Shown piece after piece: positions 13,584-43,754 of a stretch of DNA of 64,000 bases. The translations under genes were made by a program, and so were the position numbers. This stretch comes from Rhodocyclaceae bacterium (GTDB taxonomy: Bacteria; Pseudomonadota; Gammaproteobacteria; Burkholderiales; Rhodocyclaceae): NCBI GenBank assembly GCA_018883385.1, contig VEQD01000001.1, positions 26,747 to 90,746 of the forward strand, in the 5' to 3' direction. Below the pieces are notes generated by a model. The model searched no databases. It was not told the DNA's origin and saw nothing but the letters and a program-made list of their open reading frames with translations. Each line of letters begins with the position of its first letter. The stretch's first letter is position 1.

Positions 13584-13931
13584 TTACTGGCCGCCGAATT
13601 CTTCAAAGGCGCGCATGGCCTCGCCGGCGTACATGAGCGACGGTCCGCCACCCATCATGACGGCAACCCCGAGCATCTCCGCCAGTTCGGCCTTGTTGAC
13701 GCCGAGCTTGATCAGGGCCTGCGTATGGAAGCCGATGCAACCATCGCAGCGGGCGGCCACGCCAACGGCCAATGCGATCAGTTCTTTGGTTTTGGCATCC
13801 AGGGCGCCGTCTTTCATGGATGCCTGATGCAAGGCGCTGAAGCCAGCCTGAACCTCGGGTACCTGGGCTCGGAACTGGGCGAGGCCTTTGCTGATTTCCT
13901 GGGTGACGGCTTTGAAAGATTTCTGAGTCAT
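13584..13931 (-). CDS. Carboxymuconolactone decarboxylase/AhpD-like protein
   Basis: A 115-residue all-helical protein of the CMD/AhpD-like superfamily. Near residue 62 it has CDGCIGFH, the CxxC-x2-H signature of AhpD-like disulfide reductases or peroxidase partners, within the helix AVGVAARCDGC. It is probably a redox protein rather than a true decarboxylase. Divergent from the small Cys-rich membrane protein at 14.0 kb across 90 bases. Its stop abuts that of the upstream methyltransferase (TAATTA at 13581-13586). The start ATG 13931 has AGGAG-like purines upstream. Confidence 0.85.
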   Translation of the reverse strand: MTQKSFKAVTQEISKGLAQFRAQVPEVQAGFSALHQASMKDGALDAKTKELIALAVGVAARCDGCIGFHTQALIKLGVNKAELAEMLGVAVMMGGGPSLMYAGEAMRAFEEFGGQ

Positions 13932-14021
13932 GGCGATCTCCTGTGAGGGTTGTTAGGTTATACAAAAACATATAATATCAGCTTGTGGTGTATAAAGGTG
14001 TCATTCATCAAGGAGAAAAAA

Positions 14022-23567: not shown

Positions 23568-26063
23568 ATGAGCAACCGGGAGCAGGGTAGCGCCGTGCCT
23601 GAACTATTAGTATCAGAGCGCCTCGCCTGTTACCACTGCGGGTTGGAGATTCCTGAGGGTGTCGACCTGCAGGTCTCGATCAGCGGTCAAAATCGTAGGA
23701 TGTGCTGCGAGGGCTGTCGCGCCGTTGCTGAAGCCATTGTGGCGAACGGACTGGAAGCCTATTACAGCAATCGGGATTCGCTACCGGAGTCACCGCGCGA
23801 AGCAAGACCCGACATTCTCGATTCACTATCACTCTACGACCAGGTCGAGTTTCAAAAGACCTTCGTGCGCGCGCTTGGCGAGCATGAGCAGGAAGCGGCT
23901 CTTGTGCTCGAAGGGATTACCTGTGCGGCCTGCGTCTGGTTGAACGAACAGCACGTGGCACGGCTTCCCGGGGTGCTTGCCGCCGAAGTTAATTACACGA
24001 CGCGTCGAGCACGCATTCGTTGGGATGATCGTCGTATTGCCTTGTCACAGATTCTCAAGGCGATTGCCGATATCGGTTACCGTGCGTACCCCTTCGACCC
24101 GGCCCGTCAGGAAGCGCTTGCCCAGAAAGAGCGGCGAGCCATGCTCTGGCGTCTGGCCGTCTCGGGTCTCGGCATGATGCAGGTGATGATGTATGCCTAT
24201 CCGACCTATGTCGCAAATGAAGGGGAGCTGACACCCGATGTCGAGACCTTGTTGCGTTGGTCGAGTCTGCTGCTGACGCTGCCGGTGATTCTCTATGCCT
24301 GTGGCCCGTTTTTCAGAAACGCCTGGCGCGATATCAAACTGCGGCGTGTCGGTATGGATACACCGGTAGCGCTGGGTATCGGCGCGGCGTTTGTGGCGAG
24401 TGTTTGGGCAACGGTGATTGGACAGGGCCACGTCTATTACGACTCCATCAATATGTTCGTGTTCTTTCTCCTGGGAGGACGCTATCTGGAATTGCTCGCT
24501 CGTCAGAAGGCGTTGCGGGCAACCGAGGAGCTGGGTCGTTTGGCGCCGGCGTTTGCCGATCGCTTCATCGGGCGAGGGGATACATCCGACCTGGAGCGGG
24601 TGTTAGTGTCGGCGCTCAACGTAGGCGATGAGGTCCTCGTGAAGCCCGGCACCCAGATACCGGCGGATGGCGTTGTCACTGATGGTGCATCCAACGTCGA
24701 TGAATCATTGCTCACTGGCGAGAGCCATCCGGTTGCCAAGGCCATCGGTTCCGTAGTCACTGGTGGTTCGATGAATATCGACAGTCCTCTGACGGTGCGT
24801 GTGTCTCAGGTCGGCGAGGGGACACGGCTGGCTGCAATTCTAAGATTGATGGAGCGCGGGGCGCTGGAAAAGCCGGTCGCCGTGACCATGGCGGATCGCG
24901 TGGCCTCCCTGTTTCTCTGGGGGCTGTTGGGTTTATCGGCGCTGACGGCGGTGGTCTGGTGGCTGATCGATCCGGCGCGGGCCTTGCCGATCACGGTGGC
25001 GGTGTTAGTGGTCAGTTGTCCTTGCGCCTTGTCTTTGGCCACGCCCGTGGCGCTGACGATTGCCACGGGGCGGCTGGCGCGTGCGGGTTTGCTGGTCACG
25101 CGCGGTCATGCGATCGAGATGTTGGCGCAGGTGACGGACGTTGTCTTTGATAAGACAGGCACATTGACCACGGGCGTGATGCAACTGGGGCATATTGAAA
25201 CCCTGTCTGGGTTGGATGCTCAGGCGTGCCTGACATTGGCAGCCGCGCTGGAGCAACGTTCGTCGCATCCGCTTGGGCACGCCCTGTTGCGGGCAGTCGA
25301 GAATTCGCCTCTGCCAATCATCGTGGACGAGCAGCACGAAACAGGTGGCGGTATCGAGGCCACCATTGCCGGTCGTCGTTTGCGGATCGGGCATGCGGAC
25401 TTCGTGCGTCAACTGGTTGGGCAGGATTTGCCGTCCCAAGCACCTGCAGATAACGCCCGTGCGGTGACAATGCTCTATTTGGGCGAACCCGGTGCTTGGT
25501 TGGCGCGTTTCGAGATCGCTGATGAAATTCGAGACGATGCCCATGAAACCATTCGTGATCTTCAATCGATGGGCTACCGCGTCGCGTTGCTGTCAGGCGA
25601 TGCCCCCGAGGTGGTGGCCGAACTGGCCTCGAAACTGGGCATTTCGCTGGCCTATGGTCGGGAAACCCCGCAATCCAAACTGGATCGGGTTGCCGCGTGG
25701 CAGACCGAGGGTCGGGTGGTTTGTATGGTGGGGGATGGTGTCAACGATGCGCCGGTCCTGGCCCAGGCGCAAGTGTCCGTGGCCATGGGTGAGGGGACGG
25801 AGCTGGCGCGAACACAGGGAGACTGTGTGTTGCTGGGACGCCATCTGTCTGTGCTGGTCGAAGGGCTCGCCCTGGCTCGGGCGGCACGCCGGACCATTCG
25901 CGAGAACCTCTGGTGGGCAGTGATTTACAATACCGTGGCATTACCCGTGGCGATGGGCGGCTTTTTGACCCCCTGGATGGCCGGGATCGGTATGTCGTTC
26001 AGTTCGCTCTGGGTGGTCTTGAATTCTTTAAGGCTACAGCGCAAGGTTGTCGTCGGCCGTTAA
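23568..26063 (+). CDS. ccoI: P1B-type copper ATPase for cbb3 oxidase assembly
   Basis: Membrane ATPase of the CcoI/FixI (CopA2) group that exports copper slowly for oxidase metallation. The 831-residue protein begins with a Cys-rich domain (CYHCG near residue 24, MCCEGC near 46) typical of CcoI. A heavy-metal-associated domain with GITCAAC lies near 122, followed by about eight membrane spans. The metal site is SCPCALSLATP near 484, the phosphorylation site DKTGTLT near 528, and the hinge GDGVNDAPVL near 722. Position before ccoS and ccoN supports the assembly role over bulk copper detoxification, which copA at 35.5 kb probably serves. Starts 9 bases after ispH. Confidence 0.94.
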   Translation: MSNREQGSAVPELLVSERLACYHCGLEIPEGVDLQVSISGQNRRMCCEGCRAVAEAIVANGLEAYYSNRDSLPESPREARPDILDSLSLYDQVEFQKTFVRALGEHEQEAALVLEGITCAACVWLNEQHVARLPGVLAAEVNYTTRRARIRWDDRRIALSQILKAIADIGYRAYPFDPARQEALAQKERRAMLWRLAVSGLGMMQVMMYAYPTYVANEGELTPDVETLLRWSSLLLTLPVILYACGPFFRNAWRDIKLRRVGMDTPVALGIGAAFVASVWATVIGQGHVYYDSINMFVFFLLGGRYLELLARQKALRATEELGRLAPAFADRFIGRGDTSDLERVLVSALNVGDEVLVKPGTQIPADGVVTDGASNVDESLLTGESHPVAKAIGSVVTGGSMNIDSPLTVRVSQVGEGTRLAAILRLMERGALEKPVAVTMADRVASLFLWGLLGLSALTAVVWWLIDPARALPITVAVLVVSCPCALSLATPVALTIATGRLARAGLLVTRGHAIEMLAQVTDVVFDKTGTLTTGVMQLGHIETLSGLDAQACLTLAAALEQRSSHPLGHALLRAVENSPLPIIVDEQHETGGGIEATIAGRRLRIGHADFVRQLVGQDLPSQAPADNARAVTMLYLGEPGAWLARFEIADEIRDDAHETIRDLQSMGYRVALLSGDAPEVVAELASKLGISLAYGRETPQSKLDRVAAWQTEGRVVCMVGDGVNDAPVLAQAQVSVAMGEGTELARTQGDCVLLGRHLSVLVEGLALARAARRTIRENLWWAVIYNTVALPVAMGGFLTPWMAGIGMSFSSLWVVLNSLRLQRKVVVGR

Positions 26064-26080
26064 TTTGTTCGGAGCCCTCT

Positions 26081-26266
26081 GTGGAATCGCTTTACCTGCT
26101 TATTCCCGTATCGATCGTACTGGTCTTCGTGATCGCCGGCTTATTCTGGTGGTCGGTGCGTTCGGGTCAGTTTGATGACCTGGAGGGTCCGGCGCATCGG
26201 ATCCTGATGGATGGCGAAAAACGACGGAATGACCGCAAAAATGTGGCTGATCGCCTTCCGGACTAA
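26081..26266 (+). CDS. ccoS: cbb3-type oxidase assembly protein CcoS
   Basis: A 61-residue single-span membrane protein needed for cofactor insertion into cbb3 oxidase. It begins VESLYLLIPVSIVLVF with the hydrophobic segment at residues 4-22. The family-typical FWWSVRSGQFDDLEGPAHRIL follows, with the conserved SGQFDDLEGPA motif. GTG 26081 has GGAG six bases upstream and lies 17 bases after ccoI. The longer frame upstream overlaps ccoI and is not credible. Last gene of the ribF-ccoS run before the regulatory gap. Confidence 0.93.
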   Translation: MESLYLLIPVSIVLVFVIAGLFWWSVRSGQFDDLEGPAHRILMDGEKRRNDRKNVADRLPD

Positions 26267-26285
26267 AGTTGCGCCGCAGCATAAA

Positions 26286-26299
26286 TTGACGGATATCAA
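26286..26299. promoter_or_regulatory. FNR/ANR box 1 (distal, ccoS-ccoN gap)
   Basis: TTGAC GGAT ATCAA matches the FNR consensus TTGAT-N4-ATCAA at nine of ten fixed positions. It lies 20 bases after the ccoS stop and more than 300 bases before ccoN, too far to act directly as the classical ccoN site. It is about 81 bases upstream of the start predicted for the candidate small RNA (about 26374), a distance compatible with class I activation. Confidence 0.7.
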
Positions 26300-26338
26300 T
26301 AAAGTGTCATGTAGTACCGGTTTGGTGGGTTTTGAGTC

Positions 26339-26367
26339 TTGTATCAGTCATCTGATCTGAGCATACT
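26339..26367 (+). promoter_or_regulatory. Candidate sigma70 promoter of the small RNA
   Basis: TTGTAT (26339-26344) and CATACT (26362-26367) are separated by 17 bases. Each matches four of six consensus positions. Initiation would be expected near 26374, immediately before the first hairpin of the candidate RNA. The weak hexamers would suit activation by FNR from box 1. Assigned by eye. Confidence 0.4.
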
Positions 26368-26370
26368 TGG

Positions 26371-26454
26371 AGCTGCAGGGTCTCAGGACTCGGTCCTCAC
26401 CCTGCTTCTCTGTTGGGGTTGGGGTGCGCTGTCTTGGCAGTGCACCTTTTTTTT
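26371..26454 (+). ncRNA. Candidate FNR-linked small RNA
   Basis: An approximately 80-base transcript unit in the ccoS-ccoN gap. The 5' part folds as GCAGGGT (26375-26381) with ACCCTGC (26399-26405), enclosing AGGAC (26385-26389) with GTCCT (26393-26397) around a TCG loop. A G-rich, probably single-stranded linker (26406-26422, TTGGGGTT core) follows. The 3' part is a 10-base-pair stem and eight T. There is no credible open reading frame. This hairpin, unpaired linker and terminator plan is that of many trans-acting bacterial small RNAs. I recognise no known family. The alternative is an attenuator or terminator of ccoS transcription. Confidence 0.5.
26423..26454 (+). terminator. Intrinsic terminator in the ccoS-ccoN gap
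   Basis: GGTGCGCTGT (26423-26432) pairs with GCAGTGCACC (26437-26446 region) to give ten pairs, two of them G-T wobbles, around a CTTG loop. Eight T follow at 26447-26454. It ends the ccoS-side transcription and the candidate small RNA, so ccoN needs its own downstream promoter. Confidence 0.85.
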
Positions 26455-26505
26455 GCCCTTCTGCCGGCGTCTCAATCCCAAAGACGGCAGGTGTCGGGAG
26501 GAACT

Positions 26506-26519
26506 TTGACGTAGATCAA
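26506..26519. promoter_or_regulatory. FNR/ANR box 2 and ccoN promoter
   Basis: TTGAC GTAG ATCAA is again nine of ten against the FNR consensus, with the same TTGAC left half as box 1. A TAGAAT -10 candidate lies at 26536-26541. That spacing is about six bases shorter than the ideal class II layout, so the exact start is uncertain. The ccoN ATG is about 60-70 bases further on. Activation of ccoNOQP by the FNR encoded at 32.6-33.4 kb is the natural reading. Confidence 0.8.
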
Positions 26520-26609
26520 ACAATGCGAATTCAGTTAGAATTAAGGCTACGTTAAGGAATGGTTTTCGTGCAAAATCATGGTGTTTGTTCAATCAAAGAG
26601 GTGCGTCCA

Positions 26610-28049
26610 ATGTCTGTAATGTCGGATACGCAATCTGTATACAACTACAAGATTGTTCGGCAATTTGCCGTAATGACGGTGATTTGGGGGATTGTCGGCA
26701 TGCTGGTGGGGGTGATCGTTGCCGCCCAGCTCGTCTGGCCTGAACTCAACTTCGCTCCCTGGCTGACTTTCGGTCGTCTGCGTCCGTTGCACACCAATGC
26801 CGTGATTTTTGCGTTTGGTGGCTGTGCCTTGTTCGCGACTTCGTACTATGTTGTTCAGCGCACGTGCTACACCCGCATTTTCTGCGATAAGCTTGCCGCC
26901 TTTACCTTCTGGGGCTGGCAACTCATCATTGTGCTGGCTGCCGTGACACTGCCGCTGGGCATGACCTCCGGTAAAGAGTACGCCGAGCTGGAATGGCCCA
27001 TCGATATCCTGATTGCTGTGGTGTGGGTTGCCTACGCCGTGGTTTTCTTCGGTACAATCGCTAAGCGCAAGGTTCAGCATATCTACGTGGCGAACTGGTT
27101 CTACGGTGCCTTCATCATCGCGGTCGCACTGTTGCACATCGTGAACAGCGCCGAAATGCCGGTCAGCCTCTTTGGCATGAAGTCGTACTCGGCTTACTAC
27201 GGCGCACAGGATGCCATGGTGCAGTGGTGGTATGGCCACAACGCCGTCGGTTTCTTCCTGACGGCAGGCTTCCTGGGCATGATGTACTACTTTGTGCCGA
27301 AGCAAGCGGGTCGTCCGGTGTATTCGTATCGTCTGTCGGTCGTCCACTTCTGGGCGCTGATTTTTACCTACATGTGGGCGGGTCCGCACCATCTGCACTA
27401 CACGGCGCTGCCGGACTGGACCCAGTCGCTGGGGATGGTTTTCTCGCTGATTCTGCTAGCACCCTCGTGGGGCGGTATGATCAACGGCATCATGACCTTG
27501 TCGGGTGCCTGGCATAAGCTGCGTGATGACCCGATCCTGAAGTTCCTGATCACCTCACTGTCTTTCTACGGTATGTCGACCTTCGAAGGTCCGATGATGG
27601 CGATCAAGACGGTGAATGCGCTGTCGCATTACACCGACTGGACCGTGGGTCACGTGCACTCGGGCGCCCTCGGTTGGGTGGCCATGGTGTCGATCGGTTC
27701 GATCTACTTCCTGATTCCGAAGCTGGTGGGTAAGCAGGAGATGTGGAGCACCAAGCTGGTGACCACGCACTTCTGGATCGCCACCGTCGGCGTGGTCTTG
27801 TACATTGCTTCTATGTGGATCTCGGGGGTGATGCAAGGTCTGATGTGGCGTGCGGTTAACGCCGACGGCACGCTGACCTACAGCTTCATCGAAGCCGTGA
27901 AGGCCAGCTATCCGTTCTGGGCGATTCGTGTACTGGGTGGTCTGATGTACCTGGTTGGCATGCTGCTGATGCTCTACAACGTGGTGAAGACGATGCAGGG
28001 TGCGCGTATGGTTGACGACGCGGCTGTCCCGGCACCGGCACACCACTAA
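26610..28049 (+). CDS. ccoN: cbb3-type cytochrome c oxidase subunit I
   Basis: Catalytic haem-copper subunit of the high-affinity cbb3 oxidase. The 479-residue protein has twelve or so membrane spans. Histidine ligands are seen in [12 protein letters not shown] near residue 66 (low-spin haem b), [10 protein letters not shown] near 207 (CuB, with the cross-linked Tyr expected later), [12 protein letters not shown] near 257 (CuB) and [10 protein letters not shown] near 345 (haem b3 and b). I chose ATG 26610, after an AGAGG; the frame extends 17 codons upstream without support. Under FNR box 2. First gene of ccoNOQP. Confidence 0.97.
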
Positions 28050-28073
28050 GCTCAACAGAATCGGAGAATTACG

Positions 28074-28739
28074 ATGAAAATTACGCAAGAACTCGTTGAG
28101 CGCAAAGTAGGGTTGCTGATCGTGCTGACCTTCCTGACCGTTCTGGTCGGCGGCGCGATCGAGATTATCCCGTTGTTCTGGCAGAAGTCGACGACAACCC
28201 CGATTGAAGGCCTCAAGCCTTACGATGCCGTTCGTCTGGTTGGTCGCGACATCTACATCCGCGAAGGCTGCTACAACTGCCACTCGCAGATGATTCGTCC
28301 GTTCCGTGCTGAAACCGAACGTTACGGGCATTACTCGGTGGGCGGTGAGTCGGTGTACGACCACCCCTTCCAGTGGGGCTCAAAGCGTACGGGTCCGGAT
28401 CTTGCCCGTGTTGGCGGCCGTTATTCGGACACCTGGCACATGGTTCACCTGAATAATCCGCGTGACGTGGTGCCTGAGTCAAATATGCCGGCTTATCCGC
28501 ACCTCATGACCACCAAGGCTGCCGCTACGGTGGGCTCGGATGTGGATGCCAAGATGGTTGCCCTGCGCCGTGTCGGTGTTCCTTACTCGGATGAGGACAT
28601 TGCGGGCGCCAAGGAAGCCATTGGCGACAAGACCGAGATGGACGTCCTGGTTGCCTATTTGCAGGGTCTGGGCACGCTGCTACCGAATACCGCGGCCGCG
28701 ACTGCAGCCCCGGCGCCAGCGGCTCCTGCAGCGCAGTAA
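28074..28739 (+). CDS. ccoO: cbb3-type oxidase subunit II (monohaem cytochrome c)
   Basis: Membrane-anchored monohaem c subunit that passes electrons to CcoN. The 221-residue protein has an N-terminal span at about 14-36, a single [12 protein letters not shown] haem site near residue 65, and the downstream methionine ligand region SNMPAYPHL near 140, then an Ala/Pro-rich C-terminus. [14 protein letters not shown] is a CcoO hallmark. It starts 24 bases after ccoN behind GGAGAA and ends 5 bases before ccoQ. Confidence 0.97.
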
Positions 28740-28744
28740 TTACC

Positions 28745-28969
28745 ATGGATCAGAACGATTTTCGTATCGCAGTCACGGTGGTGTCTTTCATCGCCTTTGT
28801 TGCGATTTTGTTTTGGGCATACAGCCGGAAATCGAAGCCCTCGTTTGACGTGGCTTCACGCATTCCGTTTGAAACCCTTGAGCAGGCCAAGCAAGACGAG
28901 GCTCGCGAATCGTCTCTGAAGTCGTCCAAACCCGTTACGAACTTACGGAAGAATCATCATGCTAACTAG
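28745..28969 (+). CDS. ccoQ: cbb3-type oxidase subunit IV (CcoQ)
   Basis: A 74-residue small subunit with one membrane span at about residues 8-26 (VTVVSFIAFVAILFWAYS) and a charged cytoplasmic tail. CcoQ stabilises the complex, probably through CcoP. The motif ASRIPFE after the span is common in the family. Its 3' end overlaps ccoP by 11 bases. Confidence 0.9.
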   Translation: MDQNDFRIAVTVVSFIAFVAILFWAYSRKSKPSFDVASRIPFETLEQAKQDEARESSLKSSKPVTNLRKNHHAN

Positions 28970-29858
28970 TGTTGCTTCGATTATCGTCACCATCGTGGTG
29001 CTGGGCAGCATCCTCGGTTGTGGTTTTATCCTCTGGAACCAGAGCCGGGTGAAGTTGCCCAAGGGCAAGGTTGAGACCACCGGTCACGAGTGGGATGGCC
29101 TTGAGGAATACAACAATCCGCTCCCCAAATGGTGGATGTGGCTGTTCTGGATCACTGTGGTCTTCGCGCTGGCCTATGTCTTTTTGTATCCGGGCCTTGG
29201 AAATAACAAAGGCTTGCTAGACTGGTCCTCGACCGGTCAGTGGCAGAAGGAAGTGAACAAGGCCGATGAGCAGTATGGCCCGCTGTTCGCCAAATACGCG
29301 CAGACACCGATTGCGGATCTTGCACAGGACCCTCAGGCGGTAGAGGTAGGTAAGCGTCTCTACCTGACTTACTGCTACCAGTGTCACGGTTCGGACGCTC
29401 GCGGTGCCAAGGGCTTCCCGAATCTGACTGACAACGATTGGCTATACGGTGGTTCGCCGGAGACCATTCTCCAAACCATCACGGCAGGTCGTAACGGCAT
29501 GATGCCGCCGCATGCCCACTTGGGTGCAGAGGCTATTAAGGATCTTGCCAACTACGTCCGCTCGCTGTCGGGTCTGGCCAATGACTCGCTGGCCGCTGCC
29601 AAGGGCAGGGAGTTGTTTGCTTCATCCGGTTGTGCCGGTTGCCATGGTGCGGATGCTAAGGGCAATCAAGCCATCGGTGCCCCGAACCTGACCGACAATG
29701 TCTGGTTGTACGGTAGCTCGGAAAAGACTATTACCGAAACCATCGTCAATGGGCGTCAGAATATGATGCCGGCGTTTGCCGACCGTCTGAACGAGGGCAA
29801 GTTGAAGCTATTGTCGGCCTACGTCTATAGCCTCTCACAGAAGCCTGCCGCCAAATAA
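28959..29858 (+). CDS. ccoP: cbb3-type oxidase subunit III (dihaem cytochrome c)
   Basis: Entry point for electrons into the oxidase. The 299-residue protein has two N-terminal membrane spans (about 8-28 and 58-78) joined by the conserved HEWDGLEEYNNPLPKWW. Two cytochrome c domains follow, with CYQCHGSD near residue 139 and CAGCHGAD near 225, and methionine ligands in MMPPH and MMPAF. The paired NLTDN-W-LYG segments after each haem show internal duplication. Followed by an intrinsic terminator at 29877. Confidence 0.97.
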   Translation: MLTSVASIIVTIVVLGSILGCGFILWNQSRVKLPKGKVETTGHEWDGLEEYNNPLPKWWMWLFWITVVFALAYVFLYPGLGNNKGLLDWSSTGQWQKEVNKADEQYGPLFAKYAQTPIADLAQDPQAVEVGKRLYLTYCYQCHGSDARGAKGFPNLTDNDWLYGGSPETILQTITAGRNGMMPPHAHLGAEAIKDLANYVRSLSGLANDSLAAAKGRELFASSGCAGCHGADAKGNQAIGAPNLTDNVWLYGSSEKTITETIVNGRQNMMPAFADRLNEGKLKLLSAYVYSLSQKPAAK

Positions 29859-29876
29859 TTGGTCACGGTTTTCAAG

Positions 29877-29910
29877 CGCCCCGCTGGTTTCCGGTGGGGC
29901 GTTTTATTTT
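29877..29910 (+). terminator. Intrinsic terminator after ccoP
   Basis: CGCCCCGCTGG (29877-29887) pairs with CCGGTGGGGCG (29891-29901), eleven pairs including two wobbles, around TTT. TTTTATTTT follows. It separates ccoNOQP from ccoGH, which therefore need either read-through or a promoter in 29911-29973. That stretch is AT-rich, with TATATA and TAAAAT but no clear -35. Confidence 0.85.
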
Positions 29911-29973
29911 GAGCTTCTAATCGATATATAAACGCGTAAAATGTTTGTATCGCAATAGTTCTTCGGAAATGAT

Positions 29974-31398
29974 ATGAGCCAGCAAGAGACGTCCCCACAA
30001 AAACCTTCTGATAACGCGCCGGTTGAGCAGTCGCTTTATGCCAAGCACAAGAAGGTTTATGCACGTGAAACACCGGGTAAGTTTAATTCGCTGCGCTGGT
30101 TCTTCGTTTTCCTGACGCAGGCCATTTTTTATTTCGGGCCCTGGTTAGAGTGGAATGGTCGCCAGGCGCTGTTGTTTGATCTGGCAGAACGTAAGTTCTA
30201 TCTTTTCGGGTTGGTGCTCTGGCCGCAGGACGTGATTTATTTGTCCATTATTCTGCTGCTATCTGCGTTCGGCCTGTTCCTGTTCACCGCCATGGCCGGA
30301 CGCCTGTTCTGTGGTTATGCCTGCCCACAAACGGTGTATACCGAAATCTTCATGTGGATTGAAAACCGCCTAGAGGGAGATCGTAACGCCCGTATCAAGC
30401 TCGATCAGTCACCGATGTCCGGCCGTAAATTGCGCATTAAAGCTACAAAGTTTTTCTTGTGGGGCGTTCTGTCGTTGTGGACCGGGATTACCTTTGTGGG
30501 CTTCTTCATGCCCATGAAGGATCTGATGCAGGAATTGATGGCGTTGACCATCAGTGGCTGGTCTGCATTCTGGGTTTTCTTCTACAGTGCGTTCTGCTTT
30601 CTGCAAGCCGGCTTTATGCGCGAGCAGGTCTGCAAATATATGTGTCCTTATGCCCGGTTCCAGGGGGTAATGTTTGACCCAGACACACTGATTGTGACGT
30701 ATGACGAAGCGCGCGGTGAACCTCGCGGCGCACGCCGTAAGACCGATGACCTCAAAGCCAAGGGTCTAGGCGATTGCGTTGATTGCAAGGTCTGCGTTCA
30801 GGTCTGCCCGACAGGCATTGATATTCGCAATGGGTTGCAGTACGAATGTATCGGTTGCGGCCTGTGTATTGACGCTTGCAATGAGATCATGGCTAAGATG
30901 GACTATCCACCCGGTCTCATTCGTTACGCCACCGAAAATTCTCTGGCCAAACAATACACGCCGGGAGAGACGTTGCGCCATGTATTCCGTCCGCGAATCC
31001 TGCTTTACACCGGCATCTTGTTGCTGATCTTTGCGGCCTTTGTCTATTCATTAGGCACCCGCATTCCGCTGCGTGTTGATGTGCTGCGCGACCGGGGTGT
31101 GATGTCTCGCGAGGTTAGTGACGGTCTCACCGAAAACGTGTACCTCTTGCACATCATGAATATGCAAGATACCACGCGTACCTTCATCGTAAAACCAGAA
31201 GGCCTCGAGGGGATTCGTATGGATGGTCGCAATGCCTTCACGGTGCCGCCGCTCCAGAACGTCACGGAACCCATTAACGTGCGCGTGCCTAGCGGCGAAG
31301 GCAAACCCGGCGCCAATCCCATCGCATTCGTGATTGTCGACACCGAAAATCCCGATGTGCGCCGTGACGAGAAGTCCACCTTTTTTCAGCCGAACTAA
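29974..31398 (+). CDS. ccoG: cbb3 oxidase accessory protein CcoG (polyferredoxin-like)
   Basis: Membrane iron-sulfur protein of the CcoG/RdxA/FixG family, implicated in reducing copper for cbb3 assembly. The 474-residue protein has about five membrane spans, a CGYACPQTVYTE motif near residue 112, KYMCPYARFQG near 220, and two [4Fe-4S] motifs CVDCKVCVQVCP near 268 and CIGCGLCIDAC near 290. A C-terminal immunoglobulin-like domain begins about 380. Length is typical. It lies 6 bases upstream of ccoH. Confidence 0.95.
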   Translation: MSQQETSPQKPSDNAPVEQSLYAKHKKVYARETPGKFNSLRWFFVFLTQAIFYFGPWLEWNGRQALLFDLAERKFYLFGLVLWPQDVIYLSIILLLSAFGLFLFTAMAGRLFCGYACPQTVYTEIFMWIENRLEGDRNARIKLDQSPMSGRKLRIKATKFFLWGVLSLWTGITFVGFFMPMKDLMQELMALTISGWSAFWVFFYSAFCFLQAGFMREQVCKYMCPYARFQGVMFDPDTLIVTYDEARGEPRGARRKTDDLKAKGLGDCVDCKVCVQVCPTGIDIRNGLQYECIGCGLCIDACNEIMAKMDYPPGLIRYATENSLAKQYTPGETLRHVFRPRILLYTGILLLIFAAFVYSLGTRIPLRVDVLRDRGVMSREVSDGLTENVYLLHIMNMQDTTRTFIVKPEGLEGIRMDGRNAFTVPPLQNVTEPINVRVPSGEGKPGANPIAFVIVDTENPDVRRDEKSTFFQPN

Positions 31399-32617: not shown

Positions 32618-33403
32618 TCAATGAGCCGGGCGACCACTGGCAATGTCCGCCAGGCCCTCCGGGTTGGTGATCTGCAGGTGACGGGTCTGAACATCAACCA
32701 GGCCGTCTTCCTGAAAGCGTGAAAATAGGCGAGAAACCGTTTCCAGAGATAGCCCTAGGTAACTGCCGATTTCTTCGCGCGTCATGCGCAGCACGAAGGT
32801 GTTTGGAGAATACCCGAGTCGCGAGAACCGTTTGCCCAGATCCACAATGAACGCAGCCAAGCGGGACTCGGAGCGCATATTGGCCAAAATCTGGAAAGCG
32901 GCCTGATCCTGAACGATACGCTGGCTCATCAGCCGATTCAGGTGAGCGTGCAGCGTGGGGAAGGATGTCGCAATCTCATCGACGTTGCCGTAGGGCATCA
33001 GGCAAACCTCGCTGACCTCGAGCGCCACGGCGCGACACGCATGACGGCCACCACCGATACCATCCATGCCGAGGATTTCTCCGGTCATCAGAAAGCCGGT
33101 GACCTGGTCACGCTGTGAGTCGTTCGGAACAAGCGTCTTGAAGAAGCCGCTCCGCACTGCATAAAGGGCATTGAACGGCTCGCCCAGGTTGAACAGCGTC
33201 TCGCCACGCTGCAGGCGGCGGCGGGTTGGAAACCATTGGTCCAGGGATTCCAGCTCTTTGACGTCGAGTGAAGGTGGGTGGCAAACAGCGTTCAGGTCGC
33301 AGTGCAAGCACTGCGCCTTCAGCTCCGCAACATCAATCCCACGCGCCTTGTGGGTGCACGGCTCTTTAGTTTTGAAATCCTGAACTTCGTTCTTGCTGGA
33401 CAT
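32618..33403 (-). CDS. fnr: FNR/ANR-type oxygen-sensing transcription regulator
   Basis: CRP-family regulator that binds DNA as a dimer when its [4Fe-4S] cluster is intact. The 261-residue protein has cluster cysteines C32, C35 and C41 (CLHCDLNAVC) and the fourth at C134 (EVCLMPY), matching the E. coli pattern. The cyclic-nucleotide-like fold covers about 55-165. The recognition helix reads ETVSRLFSRF, giving E221, S224 and R225, the residues that read TTGAT-ATCAA. It should therefore recognise the two boxes upstream of ccoN. Divergent from hemN, with only 11 bases between the two start codons. Confidence 0.96.
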   Translation of the reverse strand: MSSKNEVQDFKTKEPCTHKARGIDVAELKAQCLHCDLNAVCHPPSLDVKELESLDQWFPTRRRLQRGETLFNLGEPFNALYAVRSGFFKTLVPNDSQRDQVTGFLMTGEILGMDGIGGGRHACRAVALEVSEVCLMPYGNVDEIATSFPTLHAHLNRLMSQRIVQDQAAFQILANMRSESRLAAFIVDLGKRFSRLGYSPNTFVLRMTREEIGSYLGLSLETVSRLFSRFQEDGLVDVQTRHLQITNPEGLADIASGRPAH

Positions 33404-43132: not shown

Positions 43133-43717
43133 TCAGGCGAAGTTGGCTTCGGCAAATTTCCAGTTGGCCAGTTTGTCGAGGAAGGTCTCGACAAACTTCG
43201 GACGCAGATTGCGATAGTCGATGTAGTAGGCGTGTTCCCACACATCCACCGTCAGCAGTGCCTTGTCGCCGGTGGTCAGCGGGGTGCCTGCGGCGCCCAT
43301 GTTGACGATGTCGACGCTACCGTCGGCCTTCTTGACCAGCCAAGTCCAACCCGAGCCAAAGTTACCGACCGCCGAGGTCTGGAAAGCTTTCTTGAACTCG
43401 TCGAACGAGCCCCATTTTTTATTGATGGCATCAGCAAGGGCACCGGTTGGTGCGCCACCGCCGTTTGGCGACAGACAGTTCCAGAAGAAGGTGTGGTTCC
43501 ACACCTGCGCGGCGTTGTTATAGATGCCACCGGCCGGCGCCTTCTTGACGATCTCTTCCAGGCCCAGCTTTTCGTATTCGGTGCCCGGAATCAGATTGTT
43601 GAGATTGGTCACATACGCTTGGTGGTGCTTGGCATAGTGATAGTCGAAGGTTTCCTCAGACATGTGCGGGGCGAGGGCGTTCTTGGCGAACGGCAGAGCG
43701 GGCAATTCAAAAGCCAT
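43133..43717 (-). CDS. sodB: Superoxide dismutase (Fe type)
   Basis: Disproportionates superoxide in the cytoplasm. The 194-residue protein has metal ligands in FDYHYAKHHQAYV near residue 24 (His), NHTFFWNC near 73 (His) and DVWEHAYYIDYRN near 157 (Asp and His). AQVWNHTFFWNCLSPNGGG is characteristic of iron-dependent SodB rather than MnSOD. The start ATG 43717 follows GGAGA. A good promoter lies at 43755-43783, between sodB and xseA. Terminated by the bidirectional hairpin at 43081. Confidence 0.95.
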   Translation of the reverse strand: MAFELPALPFAKNALAPHMSEETFDYHYAKHHQAYVTNLNNLIPGTEYEKLGLEEIVKKAPAGGIYNNAAQVWNHTFFWNCLSPNGGGAPTGALADAINKKWGSFDEFKKAFQTSAVGNFGSGWTWLVKKADGSVDIVNMGAAGTPLTTGDKALLTVDVWEHAYYIDYRNLRPKFVETFLDKLANWKFAEANFA

Positions 43718-43754
43718 AATATTTTCTCCGTGTTTGGGGTACTGCAAACCTCTG

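Follow-up and report, generated by a model that had tools for sequence, protein, structure and literature searches.

The small RNA FnrS of Escherichia coli, whose Rfam number we take to be RF01796, has an intrinsic terminator. E. coli fnrS is described as a gene that FNR activates at a class II position, −41.5 (PMC3032703), and its product as a repressor of oxidative-metabolism mRNAs including sodB (PMC10993149). FnrS/AniS of Neisseria, 108 nt in length, is transcribed from a class II FNR promoter and consists of a 5′ stem-loop, an unstructured region and a terminator (PMC3032703); its targets were called elusive in 2017 (PMC5362039). NmsRA and NmsRB of Neisseria meningitidis carry an unpaired UC-rich anti-Shine–Dalgarno sequence and repress mRNAs of the TCA cycle (PMC5362039). 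S17, described in Bordetella and conserved among Betaproteobacteria including Aromatoleum, has a short seed that is 100% conserved in many species, and is expected to block ribosome binding (PMC11722255). For the denitrification genes of Aromatoleum, small RNAs are mentioned merely as a possibility (PMC9765128).

Here we describe a predicted small RNA (sRNA) gene of about 81 nt (26374..26454, forward strand; start deduced from the −10 hexamer, end at the last T) in a Rhodocyclaceae bacterium; coordinates refer to the window, the whole stretch of 64,000 nt that was analysed. The likeness to FnrS of E. coli and other enterobacteria would lie in FNR control, in putative oxidative-metabolism targets including sodB and in the terminator, all of which are predicted here, whereas place, seed and bacterial family differ, and the promoter in the window's genus is of class I. 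The predicted targets are similar in kind to the ones of E. coli FnrS, and the promoter resembles that of E. coli and gonococcal fnrS; the best reading is that the sRNA works like FnrS, a likeness of function put forward with no claim of homology. The layout is that of Neisseria FnrS/AniS, which adjoins bacterioferritin genes and not ccoN (PMC3032703). NmsRA and NmsRB share the unpaired anti-Shine–Dalgarno sequence but are tied to the stringent response. S17 is the nearest RNA in the literature that we found, yet it is a different RNA: it lies beside coq7, is C/U-rich and Bvg-linked, and GUUGGGG, GGGGUU and UUGGGG are absent from the text of the S17 paper (PMC11722255). Neither a description of the present RNA nor its exact core strings occurred in the literature text searched; most subscription papers lie outside that text, so that absence from print does not follow.

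Rfam gave no match at the gathering threshold in the window, and on 14 loci of relatives it gave a tRNA only. At E ≤ 10, seven matches fell within 26250–26620, FnrS not among them. Matches to SorY, suhB/mmgR and NmsRb (E 0.58–6.9) were rejected as chance; that to NmsRb (RF02877) scored 15.2 bits against a cut-off of 52 (E 6.9).

Elements and genomic place of the candidate gene

Downstream of ccoS (26081..26266, +; TIGR00847 above cut-off) lies an FNR box, TTGACGGATATCAA (26286..26299, +), with 9 of 10 consensus bases, centred at −81.5 from the predicted start and thus at class I spacing. It is followed by a −35-like hexamer TTGTAT (26339..26344, +) and, after a spacer of 17 nt, by a −10-like hexamer CATACT (26362..26367, +) of the form [CG]ATACT common to all five genus genes. 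The predicted transcript comprises a two-tier 5′ hairpin (26375..26405, +; predicted fold), a G-rich linker that is unpaired in the predicted fold (26406..26421, +) and an intrinsic terminator found by a terminator scan (26421..26454, +), with a 12-pair stem (26421–26448), a four-base loop and eight T (26447–26454). Within it, the near-invariant core TCTCTGTTGGGGTTGGGG (26407..26424, +) contains the proposed seed (26407–26420), and its last bases open the terminator stem. The 83-nt stretch 26372–26454 folds at −39.0 kcal/mol (z −4.24), and none of 200 shuffles was equally stable. The FNR box, the two hexamers, the 5′ hairpin, the linker and the terminator, which had been picked out from the letters in an earlier note on this DNA, were recovered in place, and the transcript of about 80–85 bases proposed there agrees with the 81–85 nt predicted here; predicted lengths in relatives range from 68 to 158 nt. 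A promoter and an intrinsic terminator of its own, traits of trans-acting anti-Shine–Dalgarno sRNAs, are both present as judged by sequence. No reading frame consistently crosses the motif (26, 21 and 15 of 60 genes for the three frames), and a peptide-coding reading was rejected on these counts.

A sigma-70 scan of 24000–30000 returned no site at the sRNA, the hexamers alone lying under the scan threshold. The hexamers gain weight because TTGTAT, a spacer of 17–18 nt and [CG]ATACT recur in all five genus genes examined, and the combination of the TTGTAT −35 with an FNR box in class I position in the genus makes the promoter, called weak in the earlier note, credible. In these five genes (L001, L003–L006), the FNR box is centred at −81.5, −82.5, −92.5, −92.5 and −92.5; all of these are class I positions, set one turn of the helix from each other and in helical phase. 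Across the family, 60 distinct genes were taken from the best-scoring loci for promoter analysis. In 59 of them an FNR box that agrees with the consensus at 8 or more of 10 bases lies upstream, where mononucleotide shuffles lead one to expect 2.7, and 52 of the 60 have a −10-like hexamer 21–22 nt past the box, which therefore is centred at −41.5 or −40.5, the class II position. The promoter in the window's genus thus seems to have changed class, from the class II arrangement of the family (52/60) to class I. FNR-site spacing of a kind that allows activation is accordingly seen in most genes of the family and in the genus, and from sequence we infer FNR control and a transcript. The window also encodes an FNR-type regulator (32618..33403, −; best match Fnr NF008365, 218.8 bits, just under the cut-off of 228), a candidate activator of the sRNA.

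Between the sRNA terminator and ccoN (26610..28049, +; TIGR00780 above cut-off) there is a second FNR box, TTGACGTAGATCAA (26506..26519, +), absent from the earlier note, which probably drives the promoter of the cco operon itself. In 74 of 77 distinct sRNA loci, ccoN starts on the same strand no more than 600 nt downstream (distance 134–475 nt, median 193); ccoS precedes the sRNA in 70 of the 77. So constant a place before ccoN might point to a terminated leader (attenuator) of the cco operon, whose hairpins would set the read-through from the upstream FNR box into ccoN and in which a weak UCUC/GGGG mini-hairpin could in principle join the switching. We hold such a leader to be quite improbable: ccoN has its own FNR box past the terminator, the spacing to ccoN varies where a cis-acting leader would be expected to keep it constant, the invariant part is the linker and not a pair of competing stems, and no conserved antiterminator was seen. 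Three loci depart from the common arrangement. One (L031) reaches a contig end; in L024, ccoN is absent from the 1.5 kb downstream that were examined, and in L052 it lies 3.1 kb away with other genes in between, so that the latter two count against a ccoN leader. The terminator, the decoupling from ccoN in L052 and L024 and the separate FNR box of ccoN all speak for the earlier view that this is not a simple leader. By eye, the gene next after the sRNA in both L024 (1542–3046) and L052 (889–4001) is an Rrf2-like regulator, and hemerythrin-like and OmpW-like genes, likewise named by eye, also lie between sRNA and ccoN in L052.

Conservation of linker, terminator and 5′ hairpin

The linker sequence UCUCUGUUGGGGUU is identical at 14 of 14 positions in all 40 aligned core rows. 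In the same 40-row alignment, the terminator stem is 98.1% paired and six of its eight pairs show changes at both partners; shuffles average 1.1 such pairs, and none of 500 equalled the observed number. Of 249 family genomes, 216 have a match to a covariance model of linker and terminator (R1) at E ≤ 0.01, and 195 have one at E ≤ 5e-9. Weak matches (E > 1e-5; table counted by hand) account for 21 of the 216. Because all eight genomes of one genus (g6) in the R1 table match weakly, a loss of the sRNA in this genus is suggested and probable, and g6 would be useful for comparing targets with and without the sRNA. A DNA search matched 64 of 199 family genomes, and outside the window's genus the matching part was again linker plus terminator.

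Searched against 274 class genomes including the window's own, R1 gave no comparable match beyond the window itself, the best being 32 bits; in the other 273, most matches outside the family span the terminator half only. The 32-bit match (L142) was rejected as it shares the core in part only. At L142:1500–1550, in another family, a CTCTCTCCTGGGTTGGGGGG stretch is followed by a terminator, a partial likeness to the core, and the preceding gene is by eye an ammonium transporter. Among ccoN loci of named or MAG records, 15 of 80 contain the core, its carriers including Candidatus Accumulibacter contiguus, Denitromonas halophila and a Dechloromonas MAG; it is absent from the ccoN loci of Thauera phenolivorans and Zoogloea dura. 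The names of these loci lead us to regard the family as Rhodocyclaceae in a broad sense. The exact 18-nt core had no match among viral contigs.

The observed conservation of the sRNA, which spans a family of bacteria from water and sludge, far exceeds chance. A ccoS terminator with chance motifs around it and no functional RNA, a reading to which the abundance of terminator-like sites in the region lends itself (14 found, 5.6 expected), deserves next to no credence, since it leaves the invariant 14-nt linker of the 40 rows and the correctly spaced FNR box (52/60) unexplained, and model matches outside the family are mostly confined to the terminator half.

The 5′ part behaves differently from the invariant linker. 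Outside the genus it is variable in sequence and 25–105 nt long; compared with mononucleotide shuffles, its fold is mostly the more stable, 43 of 53 such parts having z < −1 (mean −2.4). Within the genus, the lower stem of hairpin 1 is 100% paired in all five genes, its changes being mainly one-sided G–U with one on both sides, and covariation is suggestive only, as the shuffle test on the five genes was not significant (104 of 500 shuffles). Relatives that keep ccoS and ccoN therefore did not show the lack of conservation in linker and hairpin 1 that had been named as counting against the candidate: the linker is invariant family-wide, and hairpin 1 has kept its shape in the five genus genes but not its sequence.

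Predicted pairing at start codons

The linker is best read as covering Shine–Dalgarno regions of the form CCCCAAC...RGAG. The seed complement CAACCCCAACAGAG was searched with at most one mismatch in 81 family genomes, and 45 places outside sRNA genes were evaluated, of which 38 were fetched by choice (recurring mismatch first) and seven came from loci returned. The start codon of a coding-like frame lies 2–25 nt downstream of the seed complement in 23 of the 45; the script had given 21 of 43, and two places flagged as sRNA for a T run (L223, L227) were recounted as mRNA sites. With a scrambled seed that keeps AGAG, a start codon at this distance was found at 5 of 30 places (Fisher p 0.002 vs 23/45), 30 of 57 matches being examined and orthologues being counted separately. 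In a congener, 2.5% of the occurrences of CRGAG by itself lie near a start. This control without ATG was adopted after an ATG-containing control, the one originally planned, did not favour the real seed: the pattern RGAG...ATG was present in 68 of the 150 family genomes searched and in 16 of the 143 class genomes, its scramble, which resembles codons, in 95 of the 150 family genomes. Raw pattern counts therefore give the seed no support. That search included four genomes of the genus, and the exact RGAG...ATG site occurred in none of them.

At the scale of a single genome, congener G082 with 1,819 predicted starts, duplexes of ≤ −16 were predicted for 48 leaders against a shuffled-seed mean of 48.8, and the tail at ≤ −18 comprised 20 leaders against a mean of 12.4, with shuffles reaching 30, which is not significant. 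Pairing of the linker with targets, as guessed in the earlier note, is supported by the complements that the conserved unpaired seed has at Shine–Dalgarno sequences; in the congener no significant genome-wide excess of duplexes was seen. The absent excess would also suit a real FNR-driven sRNA that does not pair with Shine–Dalgarno regions, its G-rich core acting as a protein sponge or on one special target or another sRNA, as would a core (14/14 positions, 40/40 rows) more invariant than many multi-target seeds. We consider this unlikely in view of the complements before start codons, which are more frequent than with the scramble (23/45 vs 5/30), and of recurrent orthologous targets.

Under the reading that we prefer, pairing at Shine–Dalgarno regions, the genes predicted as targets at one mismatch include sodB, sodC, coxB, cydA, dsrC, a phasin gene and acyl-CoA dehydrogenases, and those predicted by the ATG pattern are sucA, sucB, petA and genes for an iron–sulphur assembly protein and a cysteine-desulfurase-like protein. 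Recurrence was seen for dsrC (four genomes, G073, G010, G041 and G117, of three genera), a secreted-repeat protein (three genomes, two genera) and sodC (two genomes, one genus). Domains were found in 19 of 20 target proteins tested. Pfam backs CoxB, SodB, SodC, DsrC, SucA, SucB, PetA, CydA and one phasin, and gave no match for L203, a phasin by eye. Products that lack a Pfam or NCBIfam result, among them pyruvate kinase, IscR, WrbA-like, HppD, PII and PhaM-like, were named from the N-terminus by eye.

In the window, the putative target sodB (43136..43717, −; NF007832, superoxide dismutase [Fe], with 312.7 bits, short of the 348-bit cut-off) has a predicted pairing site, ACCCCAAACACGGAGAA (43724..43740, −), across its Shine–Dalgarno sequence. 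The RNAduplex energy of −19.7 kcal/mol ranks second among the 537 candidate starts of the window, and the congener sodB has a similar bipartite site (−18.7 kcal/mol). A sodB of the MEHTLP type with CCCC before the Shine–Dalgarno sequence is present in 33 of 249 family genomes, and 13 of these 33 leaders contain CCCCAAC (background 3.2%). By a stricter pattern, 111 of the 249 genomes have a MEHTLP-type sodB, so that most genes of this type are without the CCCC leader. A weaker site is predicted at 13937..13952 (−; RNAduplex −18.2, third best of 537) before an AhpD-type gene (13587..13931, −; TIGR00778 domain above cut-off). Weaker seed complements also occur at the starts of a PII-like gene (40099, +) and of sulfate-binding-like genes (50717 and 51842, +).

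Proposed mechanism and meaning for the family

The conserved gene, its structure, FNR box and synteny and the enrichment of complementary sites before start codons are computed results. In our judgement they probably reflect a stand-alone, FNR-activated, trans-acting sRNA of about 81 nt that masks Shine–Dalgarno regions by means of its linker; transcription, FNR dependence, pairing, repression and a role of Hfq are the parts that we infer. At low oxygen, FNR would bind its box and the RNA would be started, ending at its own terminator before ccoN. Framed by the 5′ hairpin on one side and by the terminator and its U tail on the other, the unpaired seed UUCUCUGUUGGGGUUG would pair through UUCUC with the Shine–Dalgarno sequence GAGAA and through GUUGGGG with CCCCAAC just upstream. 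Such pairing would block ribosome binding, probably with Hfq, and the congener carries a gene with an Hfq sequence, recognised by what we take to be the Hfq motif.

The sRNA would in this way repress aerobic targets (superoxide dismutases, aa3 oxidase, the bc1 complex and 2-oxoglutarate dehydrogenase) together with DsrC, phasins and acyl-CoA dehydrogenases, the neighbouring high-affinity cbb3 oxidase being made meanwhile. Its probable effect at low oxygen is to halt the synthesis of superoxide dismutase and of other aerobic proteins. FNR boxes precede both the sRNA gene and the cbb3 operon, so that at low oxygen the level of the high-affinity oxidase would go up and that of the aerobic proteins would go down together.

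A wider reading, which we put forward tentatively, sees one sRNA with a near-unchanging seed as the basis of an oxygen regulon that spans the family. When oxygen is scarce, this sRNA would silence superoxide dismutases, low-affinity respiration, polyhydroxyalkanoate phasins and the 2-oxoglutarate step together, and in one genus its FNR promoter may have moved by whole helical turns, passing from class II to class I, with the RNA core remaining fixed. The deeply conserved seed offers a concrete, testable regulon and, for the study of regulon evolution, an independent case of the FnrS strategy. With the sRNA, an RNA layer would be added to the regulation of cbb3 respiration and of oxidative defence, and possibly to that of carbon storage. 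Sludge and denitrifying members of the family (Accumulibacter, Dechloromonas and Denitromonas) live by oxygen cycling, and an FNR-linked sRNA is undescribed for them in the literature that we found. If the wider reading is true, the regulon acts in bacteria like Accumulibacter and Dechloromonas, which live through a cycle of anaerobic and aerobic phases.
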